Shown piece after piece: positions 4,746 through 30,237 of a DNA stretch of 37,144 nucleotides. The notes under the pieces are model-generated. The model was not told the DNA's origin. It saw only the letters and a program-made list of their open reading frames with translations, and searched no databases. The DNA is from a virus: positions 1-37,144 of IMG/VR virus record IMGVR_UViG_3300033979_000319; one strand, given 5' to 3'. A program made the position numbers and the translations under genes. Numbering within the stretch: position 1 is the first letter of the stretch; each line of letters begins with the position of its first letter.

Positions 4746-6326
4746 ATGGCAAGCGAAATTTTAGGTCTGTTCACCTCGCCCGAGATGTATCAACAGCAGC
4801 AAGACCTGATGATGGAACGTCAGGCTGCGGAACTCGCGCAACTTGATCCGTATCAGAGCATCCGCTTCGGCGCGATTCGTGCGGGTCAGCAGTTCGGCCG
4901 TGGCTTGGCTGGCCTGCTGGGCGCGGAAGACCCACAGTTGCGCATGATCAGCGCGCGCCAGTCGGTGCTAGGTGGGCTTGACCTATCAAACCCAGAAGCT
5001 ATTTTTTCTGCTGCGCGGCAACTATCCGGTATGCGTGATCCACAAGGTGCGTTGGCGTTAGCGGAGTATGGCCGTAAAGTGCAGGGTGACAAAGCATTGG
5101 CTGAACAGCGTACGCGTGAAAGAACGTCGCCCGCACTGCTGGCGGCTGCGCGTATCCGAGAGTTAGACTCAGGAAAACAAAAACTTATAGCCGAAGGTGC
5201 TTCTGCGGACAGCCCTGAAATTAAACTTATTGACACGGAAATAAGTGACTTGCGGCGTGGCGGCAGAGCTGACGGAGGAGGTACAAACGAGCAAAAGAAT
5301 GCCTTTGCTTTAGCCTCTCTAAAAGGTGAACCTGGTTCAGAAGCGTTTAATACTGAATATGCAAAACAGCTCCCGCTAATGCTAGGAAAAGGCGGAGCTA
5401 AAGACGCCGATAAACAGCTAGTTTTAGCTGACGCTATAGTTGATTTAGAAAAACAAATACGCAATGCGCCTGACCCTAACTCCCCAGACGTAACGGACTT
5501 GAAGTCCAAACTCGAAATACTGCGCGGTGGGCTAAGGAAAGATAAGCCAAATCTCACCGTTGTTGGTGAGGTAAAAACAGGGCCGGATAAAGGTAAAGCT
5601 GTATTTGTGGATGAAATGAAAGACGAACAGTTTGTGTACGACGTTAAAGACGGTAAACAAGTCCGCAAACCGTTTGTTGGAGATGTTGATCGGATTACAA
5701 CTCAAGTTACAGCGACTGCTACTTCTTCACTTCCTTCTGGGCCAAAACAAGTAGTTGAAGGGTTAGCTAAATTAGACGTTGAAGAGATAGCTATAGCTAG
5801 AGCAAACAAACGCAATGCTGTGGCAAGTAACACCGCACTTGCGCGGCTTGCTGATCTTGATAGTCGAGGTTTAATAGGTGGATCTTTTGCCGCAAACCGT
5901 GTAGGCGCGGCTAACTTTTTAAACTCGTTAGGTTTAATTAGTAAAAGTGATGCTGACACGCTGTCTAGATCAGAGCAGTTTCAAAAATCAGCTTCGGATC
6001 TTATTTTACAAAGTATGGGTGGGAAGTTGGGCGGAGGCATATCTAATGTCGACCTAGAATTTGTTAAGGGTGTTGTTCCTCGCTTAGAAAACAGCGCTTC
6101 TGCCAGACGTGAGCTAATAGATTATTTAAGAGATAGAAATAGCGCGATAATTAAAGAAGCTGACTCCGCAGAAAATTATTTGCGTAAGAATCAGTCGCTT
6201 TCAGGCTATACGCCTACATACACCGGCATATTTACTGGCCCCAGCAGCGTTGGTGGGACATTAACTAATATGACTGATGCCCAGTTAAAAGCTGAACGCG
6301 CTAGGTTGACTGGAGGTAAAAAATAA
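4746..6326 (+). CDS. internal virion / DNA ejection protein candidate 2
   Basis: A 526-residue, mostly helical protein in the second ejection-protein slot. It opens with SEILGLFTSPEMYQQQQ and a Gln/Met/Ala-rich helix, with RFGAIRAGQQFGRGLAGLLG next. The middle is Lys/Asp/Glu-rich and the C-terminus ends in LKAERARLTGGKK. The start follows TTAGGAGCCATC. Base composition changes inside the gene: up to about 5160 it is GC-rich like its neighbours, then clearly AT-richer up to the stop. This suggests that the distal two thirds came by recombination. The stop overlaps the next start as TAATG. No enzymatic motif was seen. Confidence 0.65.
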   Translation: MASEILGLFTSPEMYQQQQDLMMERQAAELAQLDPYQSIRFGAIRAGQQFGRGLAGLLGAEDPQLRMISARQSVLGGLDLSNPEAIFSAARQLSGMRDPQGALALAEYGRKVQGDKALAEQRTRERTSPALLAAARIRELDSGKQKLIAEGASADSPEIKLIDTEISDLRRGGRADGGGTNEQKNAFALASLKGEPGSEAFNTEYAKQLPLMLGKGGAKDADKQLVLADAIVDLEKQIRNAPDPNSPDVTDLKSKLEILRGGLRKDKPNLTVVGEVKTGPDKGKAVFVDEMKDEQFVYDVKDGKQVRKPFVGDVDRITTQVTATATSSLPSGPKQVVEGLAKLDVEEIAIARANKRNAVASNTALARLADLDSRGLIGGSFAANRVGAANFLNSLGLISKSDADTLSRSEQFQKSASDLILQSMGGKLGGGISNVDLEFVKGVVPRLENSASARRELIDYLRDRNSAIIKEADSAENYLRKNQSLSGYTPTYTGIFTGPSSVGGTLTNMTDAQLKAERARLTGGKK

Positions 6327-12738: not shown

Positions 12739-13098
12739 TCAAAATCGTAATGCTTCCGGCGTCGTCTGAATAAACTGCACGGCAGGAATTGCACGACGAT
12801 CGCCGTCTTGCAATTCAATATGTACGATGCCGTTTGATTGCGACCAGCAACCGCGCATTGCTTCGCTATACCGATTAACTTCAAACATCTTGTATCGGTT
12901 CCAACATACGCCGCCTTGTTCTGGTGTCAGCACGGCGCGGGTGCCAGCACCAGTTAAATAGACGGTATAGAGCACATTGGGCGCGGGTATTAAAACTGTC
13001 GCGCCTTTAGTCGGTGGCGGCGGCGCAGGCGGCGTTTCGACTAGCCTCACGCCAGCGAAAGCCGGCGCGGCCAGCAAGAGCAAAAGTAGGTATCTCAT
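12739..13098 (-). CDS. exported hypothetical protein
   Basis: A 119-residue protein with a textbook signal peptide (MRYLLLLLLAAPAFAG). A Pro-rich linker follows (ETPPAPPPPTKGATVLIPAP) and then a small domain with two cysteines (GGVCWNRYKMFEV, MRGCWSQSNGIVHIE). The start at 13098 has GGAGG seven bases upstream; the longer frame to 13200 would bury the signal. The start lies just inside the helicase 3' end. An exported protein inside an early DNA-metabolism block is odd; it may modify the envelope or block superinfection, but this is inference. Confidence 0.7.
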   Translation of the reverse strand: MRYLLLLLLAAPAFAGVRLVETPPAPPPPTKGATVLIPAPNVLYTVYLTGAGTRAVLTPEQGGVCWNRYKMFEVNRYSEAMRGCWSQSNGIVHIELQDGDRRAIPAVQFIQTTPEALRF

Positions 13099-14432
13099 TT
13101 CAATGCCTCCAATGCGATGTCTGAGATGGCTCGTTTGTCGTGCAGGGCAGCCCAGATTTTTTCGTCGACCGTTCTCTGTGCCATAAGGATATACACCCAT
13201 ACCTCTCGCAGTTGCCCGGAACGATGCAGACGTCCGACGGTCTGCTCGTACAGCTCAAGGGACCACGGTAGGGATATAAAAGCAATGCAGCTCCCTCCGT
13301 ACTGTAGGTTGAGTCCGTGTCCCGCGCTTTTCGGGTGAATGGCCATAAGCTCGACCAACCCTTTATTCCAACGCTCCACCGCGTCCACGTCATCCAATGT
13401 CTGAACCTGCGGATAGCGCCTTTTAATCTCCGCCAGTTCTTCCTCAAACTGGTAAACCAGGATCGTATTGGCATGTTGGTTTTCCTCCAAAAGGTCATGC
13501 AACAAATCGAACTTGTGACTGCTAAACCAAACCGCTTTCTTGGTGACGGTGAACTTGCCGGGCATGGCGCTGGCGAGTTTCGTCGTGTCGTAAACAAAAC
13601 CGGACGCCATCTGCTGGAGCTTGTTAGTCACCACGGCCGCGTTAGCCGCCACCGCCTGGGCGTCAGGAAAGTCCACCACGAAGTCGCGCTTCATCGTTTC
13701 ATACGGCTGACGATCGTCGATCTCGCAGCGCAGCTCGACAACATGACACGGCGGCAGTTTGTCCTTGTAGTCGCCCGGCTCCAGTAGGAACGTCGCCGGC
13801 TTGATGCGTCGCATGACCTGTTCCAGCGAGCCTTTGCGCGGCGCCCAGTCGCCGAAGTCGCGATTGGTGCAGACGAAGTACTGCTGCATGAACGCGCCCT
13901 TCGCACGGCCGAGTAGCTTCTCATCGACGATCTTGCACTGACCGAAGACGTCCTCCAGACCGTTACTGGTGAACGACCCGGTCAGACCCCAGCGCACTGG
14001 GAACTGTTCGATCACACGCTGCAACGCCTTGAAGCGTTTGCCTGATGGGTTCTTGAGTTTGGTCAGCTCGTCGAACACGATCGCGTCAAAGCCGCTCAAG
14101 TTTTGCCCGACCAACCATTGCAGGTTGTCGTAATTGATCACGACGATGTCATAACTTTTATCCGCCAGTACCTTCTGCCGCTCGGCGGACGTGCCAATGG
14201 CCACACCAAGTTTTAACGTCGACCACTTCGGCGCCTCGACCGGCCAAACGCTGGTGCAGACGCGTTTGGGCGCGAGTACAAGAAAACGCTGCGCGATCTT
14301 GTCTGCAATGATGTCGCCCATTGCGGTTAACGTGATCGCGGTCTTGCCGGCGCCCACAGGCGCCAACACCAACGCGCGGTCGTTCTCGTACAAGAAGTCG
14401 GCGGCCTCTTCCTGGTAAGGTCTAAGCTGCAT
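13095..14432 (-). CDS. SNF2-type superfamily 2 DNA helicase
   Basis: A 445-residue helicase/translocase. Visible motifs in order: Q-motif region RPYQEEAADFLYEN; Walker A LAPVGAGKT (about residues 23-31); motif II DELTKLKN (about 121-128, DELT in place of DEAH); motif III LTGSFTSN; and motif VI QTVGRLHRSGQ (about 397-407). The last is the SNF2/RapA form with an arginine finger. It would use ATP to move on duplex DNA during replication or recombination. The start has AGGTGGGG upstream. It lies downstream of a VRR-NUC nuclease; the two domain types often occur side by side or fused in phages, supporting a shared repair/recombination role. Confidence 0.92.
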   Translation of the reverse strand: MQLRPYQEEAADFLYENDRALVLAPVGAGKTAITLTAMGDIIADKIAQRFLVLAPKRVCTSVWPVEAPKWSTLKLGVAIGTSAERQKVLADKSYDIVVINYDNLQWLVGQNLSGFDAIVFDELTKLKNPSGKRFKALQRVIEQFPVRWGLTGSFTSNGLEDVFGQCKIVDEKLLGRAKGAFMQQYFVCTNRDFGDWAPRKGSLEQVMRRIKPATFLLEPGDYKDKLPPCHVVELRCEIDDRQPYETMKRDFVVDFPDAQAVAANAAVVTNKLQQMASGFVYDTTKLASAMPGKFTVTKKAVWFSSHKFDLLHDLLEENQHANTILVYQFEEELAEIKRRYPQVQTLDDVDAVERWNKGLVELMAIHPKSAGHGLNLQYGGSCIAFISLPWSLELYEQTVGRLHRSGQLREVWVYILMAQRTVDEKIWAALHDKRAISDIALEALK

Positions 14433-14640
14433 CTTTGCCCCACCTATTGGCGTGCTTTCTCATTTCGGCCATGTGTTCCGGCGTGCGGCGACCTGCGGCT
14501 ATTTCGCCGGTATCGACAACTTTTTCGTGCGTTGTAAACCGTATGCTGCAACTATCGCAAATGTGCCGCCGCATGACATATGATTTACGCTGGCGTGTGT
14601 CTATTACCGTTGACCGAGAATTACAGCTAGGACATTTCAT
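14422..14640 (-). CDS. NrdR-like zinc-ribbon protein
   Basis: A 72-residue protein with a zinc ribbon made of CPSC (residues 3-6) and CDSC (about 28-31), and the stretch STVIDTRQRKSYVMRRHICD that matches the N-terminal domain of the regulator NrdR. The ATP-cone domain of NrdR is absent, so it is not an NrdR orthologue. A charged tail follows. The start has GGAG eight bases upstream. It could act as a transcription co-factor or DNA-binding protein in the early leftward operon. Confidence 0.75.
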   Translation of the reverse strand: MKCPSCNSRSTVIDTRQRKSYVMRRHICDSCSIRFTTHEKVVDTGEIAAGRRTPEHMAEMRKHANRWGKDAA

Positions 14641-14849
14641 TTACACAGCTCCTTGATCGTTTTGATCGGCCAACCGGTCGCGTCGTGAATGCGCAGGATG
14701 ACGTGTGCGCGGATCGGCGTGTAGCGTGAACGATACCGACTAATGTTAGACGGCGACATCTTCAATGCGCGCGCTAACGCCGCGTCGTTTTTCAATTTGT
14801 AAATTTCTATGATTCGGTCGAACAACGGGTGAGGTATAAACGACGCCAT
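14637..14849 (-). CDS. HTH transcriptional regulator (Cro/CI-like)
   Basis: A 70-residue protein that is almost only a helix-turn-helix domain. NDAALARALKMSPSNISRYR (about residues 21-40) gives the two HTH helices, and ILRIHDATGWPIKTIKEL the C-terminal helices. It resembles short phage regulators of proteobacterial phages. AGGAG lies eight bases before the ATG. Being the second gene of the leftward early operon, it may repress the divergent promoters at 15113-15163; direct repeats there (cores at 15153 and 15182) are candidate sites. No dimerisation or cleavage domain is present, so lysogeny control of the lambda kind is not implied. Confidence 0.75.
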   Translation of the reverse strand: MASFIPHPLFDRIIEIYKLKNDAALARALKMSPSNISRYRSRYTPIRAHVILRIHDATGWPIKTIKELCK

Positions 14850-15106
14850 TCATCAATCTCCTGTAGGTTAATCAGTAACGCGTAGCGTTGTTGTAATTTG
14901 ATTACTTCGTCGCGAAACAATGCTTGCAAAGGTGCTAACCGTCCGCCCTTGGGTCGCTTCAATTCGATGAACCACGTCTCGCCGTTCGGCAGGCACACGA
15001 TCCGATCAGCAACCCCGCGCTGGTTGGGCGACTTGAATTTCCAAGCGCGGCCGCCCAAGGTTTCCACCGTCCACACCAAATAATTTTCGACTTCAGATTC
15101 GCGCAT
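14807..15106 (-). CDS. VRR-NUC domain nuclease
   Basis: A 99-residue stand-alone VRR-NUC nuclease of the PD-(D/E)XK fold. The N-terminal ESEVENYLVWTVETLGG, the core GVADRIVCLPNGETWFIELK (Asp in GVADR, Glu and Lys in IELK) and PLQALFRDEVIK are the family hallmarks. Such proteins cut branched or structured DNA. It is the first gene of the leftward early operon, ahead of an SNF2 helicase. The ATG at 15106 has no Shine-Dalgarno. A predicted -10 box ends seven bases before it, so the transcript may start at the A of the ATG and be leaderless. Confidence 0.88.
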   Translation of the reverse strand: MRESEVENYLVWTVETLGGRAWKFKSPNQRGVADRIVCLPNGETWFIELKRPKGGRLAPLQALFRDEVIKLQQRYALLINLQEIDEWRRLYLTRCSTES

Positions 15107-15112
15107 GTCCGA

Positions 15113-15141
15113 AATATAAAGGCTAAAAAAGTATTTGACAA
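15113..15141 (-). promoter_or_regulatory. leftward early promoter
   Basis: On the minus strand, TTGTCA (15136-15141) and TATATT (15113-15118) are separated by 17 bases, each one mismatch from the sigma-70 consensus. The predicted transcription start is about 15106, the first base of the VRR-NUC ATG. The -35 box overlaps that of the rightward promoter by five bases. Confidence 0.65.
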
Positions 15142-15163
15142 GAATTATTTGCGGCGGTACAGT
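15135..15163 (+). promoter_or_regulatory. rightward early promoter
   Basis: A perfect -35 TTGACA (15135-15140), 17 bases, then TACAGT (15158-15163, four of six matches) on the plus strand. Predicted start near 15170, giving a leader of about 22 bases with GGAGG before the GTG at 15192. The -10 box lies inside the first of two direct repeats (CGGCGGTACAGT 15152-15163 and CGGAGGTACAGT 15182-15193), which could be operator sites. Confidence 0.6.
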
Positions 15164-15191
15164 CGAGGCTCAAACAGTAAACGGAGGTACA

Positions 15192-16313
15192 GTGAACCAT
15201 TCCAATATCGTCGGCGGCAGCACCGCCAAGCGCGTCATCAACTGCCCGGCGTCGGTCAAGCTTGTGCAGCAGATGCCGCCGCGTCCATCGAGCGAACACG
15301 CCGACCGTGGTACGCTCCTGCACAATGTGATTGCTGAATTACTGGAGTTCGACAAACCGCCCGCGCAGTGCCTGGGCGCCACGTACAACGATCAGGTTCT
15401 CACGCAGGAGTTGCTCGATGAGAAAATTATTCCCGCTCTCGCGGCCCTCGATGTCATTGATCCAGACAAGCGAATGGAGTACATGGTTGAAACTCGCGTT
15501 GGCTTTGGTGATTTCCTTCCAGGTGTATTTGGCAGTACAGATTTGCTTGGGCGCATCGGCGCCAGAGCCATTGTCCTTGATTGGAAGTTTGGCGACGGTG
15601 TACTTGTTGACGCTGTGGATAATTCTCAACTCCTCTTCTACGCAGCAGCAGCCATGCGAACCGAAGCGGCGAAGTGGGTTTTTGAGGACGCCGATGAGAT
15701 TGAACTCATCATCGTACAACCGCCAGAAATCCGGCGCTGGACTACTACTAAGGCACGGATTCTTTCTTTTGAACAAGAGCTCGCAAAAGCGGTAAAGCGT
15801 GCGCAACAAGACGGCGCGCCGATGCAGACGGGCGAGCATTGCCGTTGGTGCGCAGCGAAACCGATTTGCCCGCAGATGAACGGCGCAGTGGATCGCGCAG
15901 TGCATCAACAGATTGTCAATCTCGATAAAGAACAGCTCGGCGCGTATCTTGAGAAGGCCGATATGTTGGAAGATTGGATCAAAGACCTGCGGGCGCTGGC
16001 GTTTCAAGTGTTAGAATCAGGTGCAGAAGTGCCAGGCTACAAGTTGGTGCCCAAGCGCGGCACGCGACAGTGGGCGTCTGAAGCCGCGATTGAAGCGTGG
16101 GCGGATGTGAATGGCATCACCGATGCGTATGAGACAAAAATAAAGTCGCCTGCGCAGATGGAAAAAGTGCTGAAGAAGCACGACAAAGAATTACCCAGCG
16201 ATCTCGTCGTCACGGTATCGTCAGGTAGTACGTTGGCACCGGCGTCAGACCCGAGGCCAGCGGTGTTACAAATCGGGAAGCAGTTGACTGCAGCCCTTTC
16301 TAAACTCCAATAA
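15192..16313 (+). CDS. RecB/Cas4-like PD-(D/E)XK nuclease (DUF2800 type)
   Basis: A 373-residue protein read from the GTG at 15192, which has GGAGG just upstream; a frame extended to TTG 15135 would start inside the promoter. Nuclease motifs: His44 in RGTLLHNVIAEL, Asp117 in GSTDLL, Asp130 and Lys132 in VLDWKFG, and Gln145 in NSQLLFYAAA. Cysteines at about 18, 217, 220 and 226 (INCPAS; HCRWCAAKPIC) have the one-plus-three layout of the Fe-S cluster in Cas4/AddB-type nucleases. It probably processes DNA ends in recombination-dependent replication. First gene of the rightward replication operon. Confidence 0.85.
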   Translation: MNHSNIVGGSTAKRVINCPASVKLVQQMPPRPSSEHADRGTLLHNVIAELLEFDKPPAQCLGATYNDQVLTQELLDEKIIPALAALDVIDPDKRMEYMVETRVGFGDFLPGVFGSTDLLGRIGARAIVLDWKFGDGVLVDAVDNSQLLFYAAAAMRTEAAKWVFEDADEIELIIVQPPEIRRWTTTKARILSFEQELAKAVKRAQQDGAPMQTGEHCRWCAAKPICPQMNGAVDRAVHQQIVNLDKEQLGAYLEKADMLEDWIKDLRALAFQVLESGAEVPGYKLVPKRGTRQWASEAAIEAWADVNGITDAYETKIKSPAQMEKVLKKHDKELPSDLVVTVSSGSTLAPASDPRPAVLQIGKQLTAALSKLQ

Positions 16314-16324
16314 AGGAAACTATC

Positions 16325-16945
16325 ATGGCCTTTGAATTAGCAAACCTCCCTCCTGTTTCTTCCCTATCAGTTGCTCTGCGTCAGCTTGAGAAAGATGTCG
16401 GCCCTGCCGGCAGCGTGATCTTGAAGATGGACAAGCGCGGTGACTGGGTCTTCGGCGCAGACCAAACCGAAGTGGACGAAGGCACCCTCTGGGCTGTCAA
16501 TCCGTTCTCATTCGTCCACGGCTACATTGCGTGGGGCGACGGTGAAGTGTTGGGCGAGAAGATGGTATCGGTATCGCATCCGCTGCCAGAGATGGAAGCG
16601 GCACCTGCAGGCGCCAAGCGTGGTTGGGAGACGCAGGTCGGCATGTCGTTGAAGTGCATCAGTGGACCAGATAACGGTCTCGAAGTGCGCTACAGTGTCA
16701 CGTCAGTCGGCGGCAAGCGTGCCGTGCAAGGTTTGGCCGTTGCGATCGCGCAGCAAGTTGAGAACGATCAAAGCAAGCCAGTACCTGTCGTCACGCTAAA
16801 ACGCGATCACTATACGCACAAGAGCTACGGGAAAATCTATACCCCGGTGTTCGAAGTGCAAGAGTGGATGAGCATGGACGGTGGCAAGGCCGAAGGTGAA
16901 GAACCTAAAGCTGACGCTGCACCAGCACGTCGTCGTCGCGGTTAA
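16325..16945 (+). CDS. candidate single-stranded DNA-binding protein
   Basis: A 206-residue protein beginning MAFELANLPPVSSLSVALRQ. It has a beta-rich core (LWAVNPFSFVHGYIAWGDGE...) and a C-terminal part that is acidic, then basic (GGKAEGEEPKADAAPARRRR). I cannot match it to a named family with confidence. Position between a DUF2800-type nuclease and DNA polymerase is where many phages encode a single-strand-binding protein, and a charged flexible tail would fit. The start has AAAGGAAAC upstream. About 180 bases without a convincing gene follow. Confidence 0.6.
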   Translation: MAFELANLPPVSSLSVALRQLEKDVGPAGSVILKMDKRGDWVFGADQTEVDEGTLWAVNPFSFVHGYIAWGDGEVLGEKMVSVSHPLPEMEAAPAGAKRGWETQVGMSLKCISGPDNGLEVRYSVTSVGGKRAVQGLAVAIAQQVENDQSKPVPVVTLKRDHYTHKSYGKIYTPVFEVQEWMSMDGGKAEGEEPKADAAPARRRRG

Positions 16946-17124
16946 GTTTTACGGGCCGAAAGCGGATACTGAAGAGCGCCAGAACGCACCACTGGCACAG
17001 AGAAAGCTTCAGGCGCAGCGAGTAGGCCCACCCTTCTATGGCTCCGGTCATTTTGGTGTCGTGCATCCTTGGTCGGATCAGTGTGACAGTGCCGGAATGG
17101 CTGGGGCCACCCTCTTCCAATATC
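16946..17124. other. noncoding stretch before the first HNH gene
   Basis: About 180 GC-rich bases between the candidate SSB gene and the HNH nuclease. Open frames on both strands cross it, but none has a start signal or recognisable motif. Together with the HNH gene it may be an inserted unit, since the downstream polymerase has no Shine-Dalgarno. No promoter could be identified. Confidence 0.45.
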
Positions 17125-17502
17125 ATGACTAATTACGCAGAATGCCCGACGTGCAAAAAGCAATTCGTTAAGTCACGTCCGTGGAGCAAATTCTGCGCGC
17201 CTAAATGCAGACACAACGCACCAGATAAAAAATTAGTGACCCGCGCATTTCAGCAAAGTCGGCGCGACTTAGTAAATAAAATAAAAGTTGATAAGGGTTG
17301 TGCTAAGTGTGGCTATAGCGTTCATGCTGCAGCGTTAGATTTTAATCATGTGCGCGGGGATAAAAAATTTAATGTAAGCCAAGATACCAAAGTAGCGTTG
17401 CAGAAACTATTAGATGAAATAGCTAAGTGTGAGGTACTTTGCGCTAATTGCCATCGCATTCACACTTACGAGAACCGGCATTGGCACACAAACCGAAAAT
17501 AA
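17125..17502 (+). CDS. HNH endonuclease with N-terminal zinc finger
   Basis: A 125-residue free-standing HNH nuclease. An N-terminal zinc finger (CPTCKKQF...SKFCAPKCR) is followed by a basic linker and an HNH core: CAKCGY, the LDFNHV histidine, and the closing VLCANCHRIHT motif. Start at 17125 is favoured because it places the zinc finger at the N-terminus; the Shine-Dalgarno is poor. It lies directly before DNA polymerase, with five bases between its stop and the polymerase ATG. Codon use is AT-richer than in the flanking replication genes. These features fit a homing-type nuclease recently inserted next to the polymerase gene. Confidence 0.85.
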   Translation: MTNYAECPTCKKQFVKSRPWSKFCAPKCRHNAPDKKLVTRAFQQSRRDLVNKIKVDKGCAKCGYSVHAAALDFNHVRGDKKFNVSQDTKVALQKLLDEIAKCEVLCANCHRIHTYENRHWHTNRK

Positions 17503-17507
17503 CTAAT

Positions 17508-19478
17508 ATGCTTTGGTTAGATTATGAGTCCATGAGTGAATGCGATCTTCCGGTGAGAGGAGCATATAACTACGCCCAGCACTCAACAACTAAGATGCTA
17601 TGCGCAGCATACGCGTTCGATGATGAAGACGTTCAGTTATGGTGGGGCGATGAGCCTGTGCCAGAACGCATACGCCAGTATTTTGCCGGTAACGGCCAGA
17701 TACGCTGCCACAACGCTTCGTTTGACAGATTAATTACCTGGTATGTTGTGTGCCAGGATTACGGATTGCCCGAACCCGCGCTGACGCGCTGGTATTGCAC
17801 GGCTGCACAAGCCCGTGCTAACTGTTTGCCGGGCAGTTTGGAGGATGTAGGCCGCGCAATATCCAGCAATATGCGCAAAGACCATCGAGGCAAACAACTT
17901 ATTCGGCAATGTTGCCTGCCGCCATTCAGTAAAGACCCCGCGTTGCTACATGAGTTGGGCGAATACGCCATGCAGGATGTCCGCTCCATGCGCGAGATCA
18001 GCAAGGCCATGCGCCAGCTCACCGAGGATGAGCTACTCGATTACCACGTCAACGAGCGCATTAACGACCGTGGCGTTTTGCTCGACCTACCGCTCGCCCA
18101 GGCCGCGATCAAATACGCCGCGACCGAGATGGAAGAGATCGAGAACCTGGTGCAAGATATAACCAAGGGTGATATCTCTTCAGTGCGCAGCCCGCGCATG
18201 AAGGCATGGGTGATGGAGCGCGTCGGCGAGCAGGCGCTAAAGCTGATGGAGGTCTACAAGGACGGCGAAAAGAAGTACAGTATTGATAAGACGGTACGCG
18301 CCAACTTGCTCAAGTTTGCAGAGGAAAATCCTGATGAAATTCCGGCCCATGTTGCGGACGTCATTCAATGCGCGGATGACCTTTGGGCGTCGTCGGTTGC
18401 GAAGTTCAGCCGCCTTAGCGAGCTGGCTGACGAAGTTGATCACCGAGTACGAGGTGCATTTGTCTTCGCCGGCGGATCTGCCACCGGGCGTGCGTCAAGC
18501 TATGGGGCGCAATTACACAATATGTCGCGAAAGTGCGCCGAAGACCCCGAAGCAATTCGCCACGCTATGGTCCGTGGCCACAGCATCACGCCACGATTTG
18601 GAAAACGCACTACAGATGTTTTACGGGGAATGCTCCGGCCCTCACTAATTCCGGCGCCCGGTAAAGTATTTGTTGGTTACGACTGGTCAGCTATTGAAGC
18701 GAGGATGACACCTTGGGCGTCCGCCGATCCGCAGGCTGAAGAGGTGTTACAGGTCTTCCGTGACGGCCGCGACATCTACAAGCGGGAAGCCGCCGGCATC
18801 TACCGCGTACCAGAAGAAAAAGTATCAAAAGAGCAACGCCAGATAGGCAAGGTGGCGATTCTGTCGTTAGGATTCGCCGGGTCGATCGGCGCGTTCGCTG
18901 CGATGGGACGCAACTACGGCATCACGCTGCCCGAGTCGGATGCGCGGCGGATTGTGGATGCGTGGCGCCGTGCGAACGCATGGGCGGTGCGTTACTGGGC
19001 CAAGCTCGAGGACGCTTACACACGCGCGCTACGCAACCCAAGGCGTGAGTTCTCAGCCGGGCGCGTGACGTATCTCTACGACGGTCAGCATCTCTGGTAC
19101 GCGCTGCCCTCGGGTCGGATTCTCTGTTACCCATTCGCTAAGTTCGAGGGCGACGAGATCACCTATATCAAGGCGGCGTGGAAACCGGCGGCCGACGCTA
19201 AAGAATGGCCGCGAGCGCGCTTGTGGAAGGGATTGGCCACGGAAAACATAACCCAAGCTGCGGCGCACGATTTATTACGTGAGACGTTACGTGCGTTAGA
19301 TCGTGAGGGGCTTAACGTGGTAGCCCACGTGCATGATGAAGCGGTCGTGGAGTGCCGCGCAGAAGACGCCGAGCGAGTGAGCGCGCTTATGCTAGAGGTG
19401 ATGACAACCGCACCCACGTGGGCGCAAGGGTTGCCGCTGGCTGCCGAAGGTAGTATAATGTTACGATACGGCAAGTAA
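17508..19478 (+). CDS. family A DNA polymerase with 3'-5' exonuclease
   Basis: A 656-residue replicative polymerase of the PolA/T7 type. Exonuclease motifs: I LDYES (Asp5, Glu7), II HNASFD (Asn69, Asp73), III YAMQD (Tyr153, Asp157). Polymerase motifs: A YDWSAIEAR (Asp about 392), B RQIGKVAILSLGFAG, and C HVHDEA (Asp about 610). Both activities look intact, while the extra N-terminal domain of bacterial PolI is missing, as usual in phages. The ATG at 17508 is fixed by exonuclease motif I, yet no Shine-Dalgarno precedes it (AAAATAACTAAT). The original signal may have been displaced by the upstream HNH insertion, leaving it dependent on read-through from the HNH stop. Confidence 0.95.
   Translation: MLWLDYESMSECDLPVRGAYNYAQHSTTKMLCAAYAFDDEDVQLWWGDEPVPERIRQYFAGNGQIRCHNASFDRLITWYVVCQDYGLPEPALTRWYCTAAQARANCLPGSLEDVGRAISSNMRKDHRGKQLIRQCCLPPFSKDPALLHELGEYAMQDVRSMREISKAMRQLTEDELLDYHVNERINDRGVLLDLPLAQAAIKYAATEMEEIENLVQDITKGDISSVRSPRMKAWVMERVGEQALKLMEVYKDGEKKYSIDKTVRANLLKFAEENPDEIPAHVADVIQCADDLWASSVAKFSRLSELADEVDHRVRGAFVFAGGSATGRASSYGAQLHNMSRKCAEDPEAIRHAMVRGHSITPRFGKRTTDVLRGMLRPSLIPAPGKVFVGYDWSAIEARMTPWASADPQAEEVLQVFRDGRDIYKREAAGIYRVPEEKVSKEQRQIGKVAILSLGFAGSIGAFAAMGRNYGITLPESDARRIVDAWRRANAWAVRYWAKLEDAYTRALRNPRREFSAGRVTYLYDGQHLWYALPSGRILCYPFAKFEGDEITYIKAAWKPAADAKEWPRARLWKGLATENITQAAAHDLLRETLRALDREGLNVVAHVHDEAVVECRAEDAERVSALMLEVMTTAPTWAQGLPLAAEGSIMLRYGK
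19431..19459 (+). promoter_or_regulatory. promoter for the second HNH gene, inside polymerase
   Basis: TTGCCG (19431-19436, four of six) and a perfect TATAAT (19454-19459) are 17 bases apart at the 3' end of the polymerase gene. Predicted start is near 19466, about 30 bases before the HNH ATG. The match lies in coding sequence, so chance is possible. Confidence 0.45.
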
Positions 19479-20020: not shown

Positions 20021-22324
20021 TTGGAGTTCTTAGAGTATCTCACAAAACTCGCGCCTGAAGGCGAAACCCTATTAATCGTTCGGCAAAAGCCGAAACTCAA
20101 AGACGGACAGGTCGAACTGCACGCCGACGGGGCGGTCAAAGCCGTCTGGCCTGCGTTCTATCCTGATCACCGTCGCCGTGATGGCGAGGCGTGGTACGGC
20201 AACACCGCGTCGTTTATCGTCGATCGGTTCACCGACGGCAAACCTAGTGCCAGCGCCGCTAATTGCGAGTACGTCTTGGTAATGGTGCTAGACGACGTGG
20301 GCGACCCGGCCAAAGCGCCTGAGACGCCGCCGTTAGCACCCACTTGGATCATGGAGACGTCGCCCGGATCGTTCCAGTGGGGCTACGCGTTCTCGGAACA
20401 GCCGACCAAGGCCGACTATGCCGCGGCCATTAAAGCGATCGCAGCGGCCGGCTACAGCGACCCAGGCGCCTGCAATCCGGTACGCAACTTTCGCCTGCCG
20501 GGCTCGGTTAACCTGAAACCCGGCCGCAACAGCTTCGCCGCGCAGTTGACCGAGTTTCACCCCGAGCGCGAATACACGCTAGACGAAATCTGCACGGCAT
20601 TGAACGTCACGCCGGTGCCGGTCGAGTCGATCGGCGTTAACCCGATCAAACTGGCGGATGACGGTGGCGACGACGTCTTCGGCTGGCTGGGCGAGCATGG
20701 TTTGGTGCTCACCAAACCCAACCGCGAGGGATGGGCTGGCGTCGTTTGCCCGAATAAGGATCAGCACACGGACGGCAACCCGGAAGGGCGCTACAACCCG
20801 TCCTCGAGGGCGTATTGCTGCCTGCATTCGCATTGCATTGACTTGAGTTCAACCGACTTCCTCGCGTGGGTTGCGGCCAATGGCGGCCCTGAGCGCGCGC
20901 CTGGGCTACGCGAGGAACTGATCGTTGGCACGATGAACATGGCGCTGGCCAAACTCGAACCGACGGACGAGTTCCCGGACGTGGCGGCCGAGGTGGTCGA
21001 GGCCGTCGAGCGCCGGCAATTGGCGCGCGTTGAGCGCGAGGGGTGGTATGAGCGCTTTGCGTACGTTGTCGAGGATGAGGCGTACTTCGACCTAGTCGAC
21101 CGGCGAGAAGTGACGCGCAGCGCGTTCAATGCCCTTTTCCGCCACATTAGTTGCCTGTCGATTCATAACGGCCGCCGGATCGAGGCGTCCGTCTGTTTCG
21201 ACGAGAACCGAGACGCGAAAGGCGCAATGGCTCTGACCGGCATCACCTACGCGGCCGGCGATGGCGTGGTGGTGCGCCGTGATGGCGTCGAGTTCGGTAA
21301 CCGCTGGCGCGACGCGCGGCCGGTACCGGTGCCCGGCGACGCGTCCCCGTGGCTCGAGCATGTCGAACGCATGGTGCCGAACTCGGACGAGCGCGAGCAT
21401 TTGCTAAACGTCCTTGCTTACAAAATTCAAAACCCGAGCGTGAAAATCAATCACGCCGTCTTGGTCGGCGGTTTACCCGGCAGCGGCAAAGACACCATGA
21501 TGGCGCCGTTTTTCTGGGCGATCGGCGGCGACACTAAACAAAACTGCAGTTTGGTGCGCAACGAGGAACTGACGTCCCAATGGGGCTATGCGCTCGAGTG
21601 TGAAGTCATGGAAATCGCCGAGCTGCGCCAGAGTGAAGCGCGGGACCGGCGCGCGCTTGAAAATAGTCTAAAACCCATCATCGCCGCGCCGCCGGACTTT
21701 TTACAGATTAACCGCAAGGGTCTGCACCCTTACATGGCGCCTAACCGCGTCCTGGTGGTTGCATTCTCAAACGAACGGGCGGCGATTAGTATCCCAACCA
21801 ATGACCGGCGGTGGTTTTGCCTATGGTCGGACGCCGGCCGCTTACCCGAAGCCGACGCGCGGCGCTTATGGGCTTGGTATAAACACAAGGGCGGCTTTGC
21901 GGCTGTTGCGTCTTATCTGCATAGCCGTGACGTGTCAATGTTTAACCCAGGCGCCGCGCCGCCGATGACCGAAGCCAAGGCGATTATGATCGACCACGGC
22001 CGCAGTACGGCCGAGTCTTACCTAGTCGAACTCATTACCGGCCGCGTGGGTGAATTCGCGGCCGGTGTCGTCGCGTCCCCGTTTTTCTCGCTTTGTGACC
22101 GCTTGGCCGGATCCGCACCGGCCGGTGTCAAGATACCGCCGGTTGCGCTTCTGCACGCGTTGACCGAAGCGGGATGGGTAGACCTCGGCCGCGTGCATTC
22201 GCGGGACTTCAATACCAAAAAACAACTGTTCTGCGCGCCAGATATGGCCGACATGTCGCGTACTGAGCTCAGGCGCTTGGCCGAGCAACCGCCGGCACCG
22301 GCGGCCGTGCGCTTGGTGAAATAA
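20021..22324 (+). CDS. primase-helicase (primase-polymerase plus DUF5906-type helicase)
   Basis: A 767-residue replication protein. The N-terminal third looks like an archaeo-eukaryotic primase-polymerase: an acidic motif in VLVMVLDDVGDP and the RNFRLPGSVNLKPGR signature. A Cys/His zinc-finger-like segment follows (CPNKDQH...AYCCLHSHC, about residues 243-272). The C-terminal third is a helicase of the type found with DUF5906, with Walker A GLPGSGKDT at about 485-493 and the conserved YMAPNRVLVVAFSNERAAIS. The start is TTG at 20021, with GGAG six bases upstream. It would prime and unwind DNA for the family A polymerase encoded upstream. It ends just before a strong hairpin. Confidence 0.87.
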   Translation: MEFLEYLTKLAPEGETLLIVRQKPKLKDGQVELHADGAVKAVWPAFYPDHRRRDGEAWYGNTASFIVDRFTDGKPSASAANCEYVLVMVLDDVGDPAKAPETPPLAPTWIMETSPGSFQWGYAFSEQPTKADYAAAIKAIAAAGYSDPGACNPVRNFRLPGSVNLKPGRNSFAAQLTEFHPEREYTLDEICTALNVTPVPVESIGVNPIKLADDGGDDVFGWLGEHGLVLTKPNREGWAGVVCPNKDQHTDGNPEGRYNPSSRAYCCLHSHCIDLSSTDFLAWVAANGGPERAPGLREELIVGTMNMALAKLEPTDEFPDVAAEVVEAVERRQLARVEREGWYERFAYVVEDEAYFDLVDRREVTRSAFNALFRHISCLSIHNGRRIEASVCFDENRDAKGAMALTGITYAAGDGVVVRRDGVEFGNRWRDARPVPVPGDASPWLEHVERMVPNSDEREHLLNVLAYKIQNPSVKINHAVLVGGLPGSGKDTMMAPFFWAIGGDTKQNCSLVRNEELTSQWGYALECEVMEIAELRQSEARDRRALENSLKPIIAAPPDFLQINRKGLHPYMAPNRVLVVAFSNERAAISIPTNDRRWFCLWSDAGRLPEADARRLWAWYKHKGGFAAVASYLHSRDVSMFNPGAAPPMTEAKAIMIDHGRSTAESYLVELITGRVGEFAAGVVASPFFSLCDRLAGSAPAGVKIPPVALLHALTEAGWVDLGRVHSRDFNTKKQLFCAPDMADMSRTELRRLAEQPPAPAAVRLVK

Positions 22325-24280: not shown

Positions 24281-24448
24281 TTAGATGTAATTCCAAGCTT
24301 TAGCGCCGACGGATTTCGCGAATTGCTTTGCGTCGCGCTTCTGGCGGAAAGTAGCTTCTGTAATGATGTTTTCCAAAAGCGGTTTAACACCATTAACGAT
24401 TGCAATTTTCCAGCCGTCGCGCGTTTTTGTAAGGTGAGCCGTGATCAT
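24281..24448 (-). CDS. small basic protein, first gene of the leftward block
   Basis: A 55-residue protein (MITAHLTKTRDGWKIAIVNG...) with beta-strand then helix (TEATFRQKRDAKQFAKSVGA). The start at 24448 has AGGGG seven bases upstream and is preferred to a frame running to 24505, which has no signal. It is the promoter-proximal gene of the leftward block. The length and charge suggest a nucleic-acid-binding or host-takeover peptide, but no domain is recognised. Confidence 0.65.
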   Translation of the reverse strand: MITAHLTKTRDGWKIAIVNGVKPLLENIITEATFRQKRDAKQFAKSVGAKAWNYI

Positions 24449-24495
24449 TTGATAACCCCTTCGTTTTGTTTTGTAAAGAAATGTGCTGCAGAAGC

Positions 24496-24523
24496 AAAAT
24501 AGCACACTTTTAGAGAATGTAAA
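24496..24523 (-). promoter_or_regulatory. leftward promoter for the 24.4-22.4 kb block
   Basis: On the minus strand TTTACA (24518-24523) and TATTTT (24496-24501) are 16 bases apart, about 45 bases before the first ATG. The -35 box lies within an 8-bp palindromic repeat, ATGTAAAA (24517-24524) and TTTTACAT (24530-24537), a candidate operator. Confidence 0.5.
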
Positions 24524-24569
24524 AGAATTTTTTACATGCTAGTGAATAACCCTGGGAAATATAAGGGTT

Positions 24570-24793
24570 TGTGGGCAATGTGGGTCATTGTGTGGGTCAT
24601 GTTTTTGGGGCAAATGACCCACACCAAATGCGTTGATGCGCCACGGTTTTAGGGGTTTGTGGGTCATGTGGGTCATCATTTTCAAAGTCTGTCAGAAATA
24701 CACAGAATTGTGAAATAATGGCCGCGCTGAGATTTAACACTTGGAGCGGCGCCGACTTAAAATGCATGACCCACATTGCCCACATGACCCACA
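24570..24793. repeat. array of nine 10-bp repeats (iteron or operator)
   Basis: TGTGGGTCAT occurs exactly at 24579-24588, 24591-24600, 24658-24667 and 24667-24676 on the plus strand, and at 24614-24623, 24766-24775 and 24784-24793 on the minus strand. The variant TGTGGGCAAT is at 24570-24579 (plus) and 24775-24784 (minus). The outer parts form a 19-bp inverted repeat, TGTGGGCAATGTGGGTCAT, at 24570-24588 and 24766-24784. The centre (24677-24765) is AT-richer. The array separates the leftward block from the rightward late block and overlaps the start of the small gene at 24809, fitting a replication origin or a multi-site operator. Confidence 0.85.
24734..24763 (+). promoter_or_regulatory. rightward promoter for the RHH-like gene
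   Basis: TTAACA (24734-24739), 18 bases, then TAAAAT (24758-24763), each one mismatch from consensus. Predicted transcription starts near 24770, inside the right-hand repeat cluster (24766-24793). Binding there would block initiation, as expected for autoregulation. Confidence 0.55.
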
Positions 24794-24808: not shown

Positions 24809-25018
24809 ATGCCAAAACCACCCACATTGACGCCCAAAAGATTCGACAGAAAATTGACGTTAGAACAACTAAATATTTTAGCGGCCGCCGGATCCGGAAA
24901 CATCACAAAAGGTCTTGATGTCGTTTTGAGTTGCTACCAAGTACTGTATAACGCCGGCGTCAAAAGTGATGACAAGTTGTTAATATTACTTTCAGATATA
25001 CGGAAATCAGGTAACTAA
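24809..25018 (+). CDS. small ribbon-helix-helix-like DNA-binding protein
   Basis: A 69-residue protein. A short basic N-terminus leads to RKLTLEQLNILAAAGSGNIT and KGLDVVLSCYQVLYNAG. This pattern (a short strand, a helix over LTLEQLNILAAAG, then GNITKGLDVVL) is the one I recognise from short ribbon-helix-helix regulators of phages and plasmids. Such proteins bind arrays of short repeats in direct or inverted order, as the Omega and CopG families do. The gene starts 15 bases after the last 10-bp repeat. The ATG has no evident Shine-Dalgarno. The assignment is moderate; the operator link is inference. Confidence 0.6.
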   Translation: MPKPPTLTPKRFDRKLTLEQLNILAAAGSGNITKGLDVVLSCYQVLYNAGVKSDDKLLILLSDIRKSGN

Positions 25019-28188: not shown

Positions 28189-30237
28189 ATGGACCAAAAC
28201 GACTTTGATCAGCCAGACGAGGCCGATAAAGAGTTAGTTTCTTTCGTGACTGATCATTGTGATCGGTGGCGTACCTACCGAGACATCAATTTCCTGCCGA
28301 GCTGGGAAGAATACGAACGTATCTTCCGTGGCGAATGGGCAGTCGAAGACAAGACCCGCGATTCCGAACGCTCCCGCCTAGTCACGCCGATGACGCAGCA
28401 GGCGGTGGAGACGCGCCACGCCGAGATCATGGAGGCGATTTTTGGCTCGGGCGAGTACTTCGACATCGAAGACGACTTGAAGGACATCGACGGCAGCCCA
28501 CTGGACGTGGAGATGCTAAAGCGCCAGTTGATGGAGGACTTCAAAAAGGACAAGATCAGAAAATCTATCGATCACATCGAGTTGTTAGCCGAAATCTATG
28601 GCACCGGTATTGGTGAGATCGTGGTCAGCATGGAGAAGGAGTACATGCCGGCTACGCAAGCGATTCCCGGGCAGATGGGGCAGGCGGCCATTGGCGTGAT
28701 TGAGAAGCCGCGCGTGTCGGTCAAGCTAGTGCCGGTGAACCCGAAAAACTTCCTGTTTGACCCCAACGGCACGTCGGTCGACGACTGCATGGGTGTGGCG
28801 ATTGAGAAGTACGTATCGATCCACAAGGTGGTGCGCAACATCGAGCGCGGCATCTATCGCAAAGTCAACATCACCCCGACGTACGACGATACTGATCTGG
28901 AGCCGACACAAGAGGTCAGCTCCTACGAGGATGAGAAGGTCAAACTGCTGACCTACTACGGTCTGGTGCCCAAAGAGTACATCGCCAAGTTGAACGAAAG
29001 CGACGAGGAGATGGTCGATCTGTTCCCGGAGGATTCAGCGGCCGAGGACTACAGCGACATGGTCGAGGCGATCGTCGTGATTGCCAACGACGGGATGCTC
29101 TTGAAGGCCGAAGAGAATCCGTACATGATGAAGGATCGTCCGGTGCTGTCGTACCAGGACGACACGGTGCCGAATCGTCTGCTAGGGCGGGGGACGGTTG
29201 AGAAGGCGTACAACATGCAGAAGGCGATTGACGCAGAAGTGCGCTCGCACCTGGATGGACTGGCGCTGACATCGGCGCCGATGATGGCAATGGATGCGAC
29301 GCGTCTGCCGCGTGGCGCGAAGTTTGAAGTGCGTCCGGGCAAGGCGATCCTGACGAACGGCAACCCGAACGAGATTCTGTTCCCGTTCAAGTTTGGTCAG
29401 ACGTCGAACGACAACTTGGCCACCGCCCAGCGGTTTGAGACGATGCTGTTGCAGGCAACTGGCACGTTGGACAGTCAAGGGATGGTCAGTCAAGTCTCGC
29501 GTGACGGTGGCAACGCCGGCATGTCGATGGCAGTCGCCTCGATCATTAAGAAGTACAAGCGCACGCTGGTGAACTTCCAAGAAGACTTTTTGATGCCATT
29601 CATCAAGAAGTCGGCGTTTAGGTACATGCAGTTCGATCCCGAGCGCTATCCGTCGGTGGATATGAACTTCATCCCGACGGCGACACTAGGCATTATCGCT
29701 CGCGAGTACGAGCAGGCGCAGTTCATTGCGCTGTTGCAGACCTTGGGGCCAGACACACCGGTGCTGCCGTTGATTCTGAAGGGCATTGTGGCCAACAGCT
29801 CACTGTCGAACCGCATGGAGTTGATGGAGTCGCTGACACAGATGGCGCAGCCGAATCCAGAACAGCAGCAGATGGCGCAGATGCAGCAGCAGTTGGCGAT
29901 GGAAGCGGCGCAGGCGCAGATCGCGGTCAATCAGACGCAGGCCGAGCAGAACCGTGCAGAGGCCACGAAGACGCTGATCGAGGCGCGGTTGAAGCCCGTC
30001 GAGACGGAAGCGAAGATTATGTCGGCGACCACGCAGAATTTGCCGACTAGCGACGATCTGGCGTCCAAAGAGTTCGACAAGCGGGTCAAATTAGCAGAGT
30101 TGATGCTGAAAGAAGCCGACATCAAGAACAAATCGAAGATCGTTGAGATGCAGATGGCGGATAAGCAGAACAAGATCAGCGGCATGGAAGAAGACTTCCT
30201 TGAAGAACTGACCAAGGAGCTGTCGAATGGACGTTGA
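28189..30237 (+). CDS. portal protein (podovirus head-tail connector)
   Basis: A 682-residue portal in the size range of P22-type portals. Recognised stretches are QAVETRHAEIMEAIFGSGEY near the N-terminus, AEIYGTGIGEIVVSMEKEY, VPVNPKNFLFDPNG and the wing/crown region. The C-terminus (from about residue 560) is a long Gln/Met/Ala-rich coiled coil (MAQMQQQLAMEAAQAQIAVN...), like the barrel of long podovirus portals. Twelve copies would form the DNA channel. The gene follows terminase, and its 3' end overlaps the fibre start by 11 bases. Confidence 0.9.
   Translation: MDQNDFDQPDEADKELVSFVTDHCDRWRTYRDINFLPSWEEYERIFRGEWAVEDKTRDSERSRLVTPMTQQAVETRHAEIMEAIFGSGEYFDIEDDLKDIDGSPLDVEMLKRQLMEDFKKDKIRKSIDHIELLAEIYGTGIGEIVVSMEKEYMPATQAIPGQMGQAAIGVIEKPRVSVKLVPVNPKNFLFDPNGTSVDDCMGVAIEKYVSIHKVVRNIERGIYRKVNITPTYDDTDLEPTQEVSSYEDEKVKLLTYYGLVPKEYIAKLNESDEEMVDLFPEDSAAEDYSDMVEAIVVIANDGMLLKAEENPYMMKDRPVLSYQDDTVPNRLLGRGTVEKAYNMQKAIDAEVRSHLDGLALTSAPMMAMDATRLPRGAKFEVRPGKAILTNGNPNEILFPFKFGQTSNDNLATAQRFETMLLQATGTLDSQGMVSQVSRDGGNAGMSMAVASIIKKYKRTLVNFQEDFLMPFIKKSAFRYMQFDPERYPSVDMNFIPTATLGIIAREYEQAQFIALLQTLGPDTPVLPLILKGIVANSSLSNRMELMESLTQMAQPNPEQQQMAQMQQQLAMEAAQAQIAVNQTQAEQNRAEATKTLIEARLKPVETEAKIMSATTQNLPTSDDLASKEFDKRVKLAELMLKEADIKNKSKIVEMQMADKQNKISGMEEDFLEELTKELSNGR

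Follow-up and report, generated by a model that had tools for sequence, protein, structure and literature searches.

The window (the whole 37,144-bp stretch of DNA that we analysed, an IMG/VR virus record) belongs to a podophage with an SU10/P22-type portal. Between two divergent ORFs (24281–24505 on the minus strand and 24809–25018 on the plus strand) we found seven exact copies of TGTGGGTCAT and two TGTGGGCAAT variants at 24570–24793, in both orientations, as the initial annotation had described; the flanking ORFs and the perfect 19-bp inverted repeat formed by the outer clusters (24570–24588 and 24766–24784) also agreed with it. Because adjacent copies overlap by one shared T, the true unit of the array is 9 bp (TGTGGGTCA). 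The seven copies of the 10-mer lie within 230 bp, as compared to a maximum of 3 for any 10-mer in 200 dinucleotide-preserving shuffles. Neither iteron 9-mer has an exact copy elsewhere in the 37,144-bp window, in which there is one site with a single mismatch (at 4927), and each of the three TGTGGGTCA genomes that we checked has a single array of this type.

On one side of the array is the leftward block of small genes behind the primase, on the other the rightward late block; the array itself lies 2.2 kb downstream of the primase-helicase gene and beyond the leftward ORFs. The primase-helicase matches DUF5906 above the Pfam cut-off and RepB_primase weakly, below the cut-off, and its PHROG match is DNA primase. 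It is predicted to join a primase domain, a DUF5906/D5-type SF3 helicase and a C-terminal winged helix. AlphaFold2 modelled the complete protein with a pTM of 0.40, and confidence is confined to the helicase and the C-terminal part; at residues 680–750 the pLDDT is about 75–86 and the elements follow one another as in a winged helix. The helicase part folds like NrS-1 PrimPol, ASFV PrimPol, SaPI5 PriRep1 and poxvirus D5/E5, and a sequence search of the PDB gave a confident match to the NrS-1 helicase region only. In the replication block at 13095–19478, a SNF2-like helicase, a DUF2800/PD-(D/E)XK nuclease and a family A polymerase stand beside the D5-type primase-helicase, an arrangement that resembles the TV-Pol/D5 association (PMC7581432). 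A leftward operon encodes a 70-aa CI-repressor-like helix-turn-helix protein (14637–14849, minus strand; PF07022, E 8e-5).

Table 1. Features of the array, its surroundings and the replication genes in the window
Feature	Position	Strand	Remark
Iteron array, nine 9-bp sites	24570–24793	both	same nine positions, changed words in relatives
Array layout			left cluster (+ + + -), middle pair (+ +), right cluster (- - -)
Iteron 1	24570–24579	+	TGTGGGCAAT variant
Iteron 2	24579–24588	+	TGTGGGTCAT
Iteron 3	24591–24600	+	TGTGGGTCAT
Iteron 4	24614–24623	-	TGTGGGTCAT
Iteron 5	24658–24667	+	TGTGGGTCAT
Iteron 6	24667–24676	+	TGTGGGTCAT
Iteron 7	24766–24775	-	TGTGGGTCAT
Iteron 8	24775–24784	-	TGTGGGCAAT variant
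Iteron 9	24784–24793	-	TGTGGGTCAT
Spacer between opposed iteron clusters	24677–24765		57% A+T; candidate unwinding region
Most A+T-rich 40-mer near the array	24510–24549		78% A+T; alternative candidate unwinding region
69-aa protein adjoining the array	24809–25018	+	argued not to be the binder; RHH identity not established
Primase-helicase, 767 aa	20021–22324	+	proposed origin-binding initiator; Pfam, PHROG and fold matches
Predicted winged-helix domain, residues 663–755	22007–22285	+	AlphaFold2
Winged-helix elements			H1 663–673, S1 683–685, H2 688–698, H3 707–716, S2 720–727, wing, S3 730–738, H4 747–755
Putative specificity segment HSRDFNTKK, residues 726–734	22196–22222	+	wing hairpin; best of 759 scan windows
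R728 codon	22202–22204	+	presence matches G at iteron position 2
Family A DNA polymerase	17448–19478	+	same replication module; Pfam, PHROG; start codon uncertain

Repeat words in related phages

When we searched for the 10-mer in relatives, as had been proposed with the initial annotation, we found the exact tandem TGTGGGTCATGTGGGTCAT in 71 other viral contigs. Among the resulting 72 contigs (window included), a large terminase gene is near the array in 66, a likely small terminase in 45, and the primase-helicase is on the fetched piece in 39; this shared neighbourhood indicates that the array belongs to one broad phage group and is kept at one place. The group is sizeable, with more than 500 primase relatives in IMG/VR, and a megablast of the window against named phages returned no match. 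Two close relatives of ~37 kb, 3300044620_000180 (L082, L089) and 3300034012_000681 (L077, L091), both start and end at other genes than the window does, which fits circular or circularly permuted genomes. Contigs of the same group (L190–L197) are found in MAGs labelled actinobacterium, betaproteobacterium, Rhodoferax, Mucilaginibacter and Armatimonadetes; as these bins fall in different phyla, they do not settle the host.

In close relatives that keep the 69-aa gene, the nine sites are at the same places and all or nearly all of them carry another word, with TGCGGGCAA or TGAGGGCAA replacing TGTGGGTCA. More distant relatives have TGCACGTCA, TTTGGGTCA, TGTGGACAA, TGTAGTCAA and others, so that 82 phages hold 24 fully determined words, and on the primase tree the word changed at least 37 times. 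Scattered sites that change together in this way require a binding protein that has altered its specificity as well.

Among phages whose primase bodies are 94–95% identical to that of the window, the tail VHSRDFNTKK goes with TGTGGGTCA and VGTREHQTKK with TGCGGGCAA, and at 87–88% identity the tail VSTREHQTKK goes with TGAGGGCAA. Between one TGTGGGTCA phage (L088) and three TGCGGGCAA phages (L092–L094), the primase is closely similar except in the last ~60 residues. At the DNA level, the same comparison shows two islands of divergence, the 3' end of the primase gene and the array, and the ~2 kb between them is mostly about 90% identical apart from small indels. Another phage, L095, combines the TGTGGGTCA word and an HSRD wing with a primase body that resembles those of TGAGGGCAA phages.

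To quantify this association, we used 82 phages with both a primase and an array, in which the arrays were called blind to the protein. Our first motif caller often took coding repeats (CGGCGG-type) or a second palindrome, and long ORFs were then masked; low-scoring loci were left out of the association test. For all 759 nine-residue windows of the primase, we compared window distance with word distance while correcting for core distance. All of the top nine windows fall at residues 720–736 and the correlation peaks at 726–734 (r 0.36), as compared to a background elsewhere with a mean of 0.018, an sd of 0.063 and a maximum of 0.22. In a partial Mantel test, 0 of 999 permutations reached the observed value, a figure that is not a strict probability because the correlated pairs are related phages, and for which the tree-based counts are the safer guide. 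The primase core hardly predicts the unit (r 0.06), and prediction of the unit missed 1.38 of 9 positions from the wing as compared to 2.37 from the core. When 17 other gene families, including the terminases, the polymerase and the 69-aa protein, were scanned in the same phages, their best window was always below the wing.

These comparisons bear on two other candidate readers. The initial annotation had called the 69-aa neighbour RHH-like and had raised the possibility of a switch between the early and late blocks; on this reading, an RHH-type (Omega/CopG-like) protein would use the array as its operator and turn early into late transcription. The gene adjoins the array with its start close to the right cluster, and RHH proteins bind short repeat arrays. 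However, L081 and L082 encode 69-aa proteins that are identical over the first 66 residues and have arrays of TGCGGGCAA and TGTGGGTCA, respectively, and since they share the protein and differ in the word, we argue that the 69-aa protein is not the reader. Members of its family can be recognised in no more than 11 of the 72 array-bearing contigs, and across relatives the repeat unit does not follow this putative RHH protein (best window r 0.16, as compared to 0.60 for the primase wing in the same 23 phages). The protein has no Pfam or PHROG match, and its AlphaFold2 model is of low confidence (pLDDT 61) and all helices, with no N-terminal strand. We therefore regard this assignment as very unlikely. 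The 69-aa protein is conserved in one phage subgroup, and its N-terminus is strongly conserved (MPKPPTLTPKRF).

The terminase genes near the array in most contigs could instead suggest that the array is a packaging (pac) site and that the small terminase, encoded beside it in most relatives, reads it. In the likely small-terminase family (n=42), however, the best window reaches r 0.15 as compared to 0.37 for the wing; in a second small-terminase-like family (n=19) the values are 0.31 and 0.61, and for the large terminase they are 0.37 and 0.47. We consider a pac site extremely improbable. Covariation thus points to the primase-helicase as the protein that reads the array.

Wing residue 728 and the second base of the unit

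We also compared single positions of the wing with single positions of the unit. The residues that covary with the word are on the wing, and H3 (707–716) hardly varies; in the AlphaFold2 model, R728 is placed at the turn of the S2–S3 hairpin. Of the 82 phages, 68 combine R728 with G at position 2 of the unit; in the other 14, residue 728 is G, S, A or T and the base is T, A or C, so that agreement is complete (82/82) over seven independent switches. All seven phylogenetically independent pairs follow the rule (sign test p 0.016). The neighbouring residue behaves less strictly: 10 of the 11 cases of T727 have a non-T base at position 3, and S/T727 tracks position 3 loosely (78/82 overall). These data suggest that the wing reads bases and that R728 touches G2.

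With the rule fixed beforehand, we fetched 113 new contigs and called their arrays by the same script; in 48 of them (about 40%) the array call was weak or absent. The remainder comprised 37 with R and G, 23 with neither, 3 misfits and 2 in which position 2 could not be assigned. Thus 60 of the 63 scorable contigs agree, although most of these phages come from lineages already sampled, which makes this more a consistency check than an independent one. All three misfits have the word TAGTGGCCAC, which is part of another palindrome, TTAGTGNNCACTAA, and are not iteron calls. Dropping any preference at position 2 from the caller left the held-out table almost unchanged (35, 4, 0, 23). One phage, L257, with the wing LMSRDYPS and a low-scoring call of NTTTAGTCAT, may be an exception to the rule or may have a misaligned unit. 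The palindrome TTAGTGNNCACTAA itself is absent from the window; 28 related loci have between one and three copies of it (for example L002:2116-2153, L011:11930-11966, L031:2511-2585 and L119:14717-14754), and in several of these loci it is near the iteron array. It may serve the late block as an operator or promoter element.

The same rule bears on whether a host DNA-binding protein, such as a DnaA-like initiator, uses the array. The unit TGTGGGTCA resembles TGTGGATAA, and its TGTGG core is similar to a DnaA box. However, the units TTTGGGTCA, TGCACGTCA and TGTAGTCAA have no likeness to a DnaA box, and the unit follows the phage-encoded wing, down to the complete agreement at one residue. We reject host DnaA-like binding because the units diverge together with the phage protein, and we give it next to no probability.

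A candidate replication origin and its known counterparts

Taken together, these data suggest that the array serves this phage as its replication origin, with iterons bound by the C-terminal winged helix of the phage's own primase-helicase, mainly via the wing; we give this reading a probability of roughly 0.87. Of the options raised in the initial annotation, an origin of replication is thus supported, with the primase-helicase taking the place of the RHH protein as the binder. We propose that the winged-helix domain would bind the 9-bp iterons and read each unit chiefly with residues 726–734 of the wing, where R728 probably contacts the G at position 2. Helicase would gather at the opposed iteron clusters that flank the spacer; once it is loaded, the spacer would be opened, and the fused helicase and primase would then begin DNA synthesis for the family A polymerase of the phage. 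We infer these steps, from direct binding through helicase loading and strand opening to initiation at the array.

An AT-richer centre had been annotated; the spacer does exceed its surroundings in A+T, but the peak of A+T content lies left of the array. That the spacer is only moderately A+T-rich counts against the origin reading, and so does the GC skew, which has no sign change at the array.

The primase-helicase could also bind the array chiefly to regulate the divergent genes or the late block, with the origin elsewhere. The array does stand between divergent genes and ahead of the late block, a promoter-like TTAACA-18-TAAAAT (24734–24763) abuts the right cluster, and TATAAT is found just downstream of the last iteron in L074, L082 and L087. 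However, the start of transcription that had been predicted for the gene at 24809 comes from consensus matches only, of which there are 4 as compared to 2.3 expected from shuffles. Such near-chance matches were not found to be conserved among aligned relatives, and known relatives of this protein class use repeats of this kind for initiation (PMC7581432). We therefore judge a mainly regulatory array to be unlikely. An early/late switch could arise as a side effect of binding beside promoters, and nothing points to it as the main role.

An origin bound by the primase-helicase has close counterparts in staphylococcal elements. In SaPI Rep and SCCmec Cch2, which are proposed to be self-loading helicases, the C-terminal domain binds the iterons of the origin, and SaPI5 Rep fuses primase and helicase (PMC7581432). 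The phage helicase matches the fold of SaPI5 PriRep1 (7ola, Z 15.9 over 214 residues, rmsd 3.7). In contrast to these proteins of a satellite or cassette, whose origin is directly downstream of the gene, the present one is encoded by a whole phage, has 9-bp units and has its array 2.2 kb away, near terminase genes. Because the array is not directly downstream of the initiator gene, we describe the system as working like SaPI Rep and do not file it as one.

The alpha protein of satellite phage P4 recognises the iterons of ori1/crr with its C-terminal part. It is a fused primase and helicase that is used for initiation (PMC7145576), but it differs in its primase domain (the phage protein has the weak RepB_primase match) and in its repeat word, and we found no second array in the window. 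By fold, the helicase and C-terminal region are closest to the NrS-1 primase-polymerase (Z 22.0 over 283 residues, rmsd 7.6), at a sequence identity of about 16%; the NrS-1 genome has two copies of an 8-nt recognition sequence and no array (PMC7102993). In RepA of the V. cholerae PLE, a phage satellite, the DNA-binding domain covaries with the iterons of the origin, and the two are exchanged as one module against an otherwise conserved protein; swaps showed that cognate domain–iteron pairs are necessary, and the covariation was linked to an origin-directed nuclease (PMC8263062). RepA is of the RepA_N family and has few variants, whereas here we see a primase-helicase, dozens of units and a rule at the level of residues. 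The nearest named phage record, Podoviridae sp. ctNMl277 (MW202483.1; L199), encodes a primase that is 49% identical. It has its own unannotated cluster of eight ATGTAAAC copies near the terminase genes (28220–28480), a candidate origin, with a word unrelated to that of the window and a very different wing, CFAPELSTKRH.

Covariation of an initiator domain with its iterons, and hence this kind of system, is already known. Within the open-access literature, four things appear to be new: this group of phages, where its proposed origin lies, how many natural words exist, and the sharp rule that relates a wing residue to a base. A bolder reading, which we hold tentatively and at somewhat less than even odds, is that these phages have a naturally evolving and nearly modular origin code, in which the wing and not the recognition helix sets the word and single positions map to single bases; selection against shared origins (through origin-targeting defence, satellites or competing co-infecting phages) would lie behind the dozens of times that word and wing switched together.

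The array and the primase-helicase provide a probable origin and initiator for a large group of uncultured freshwater phages. They also form a natural series of matched protein–DNA pairs, from which one could learn, residue by residue, how the wing of a winged helix recognises DNA, and they raise the evolutionary question of what forces phages to change all copies of the origin word and its reader at once. The repeated joint change of the word and a nine-residue segment of the wing hints at a readable protein-to-DNA code.
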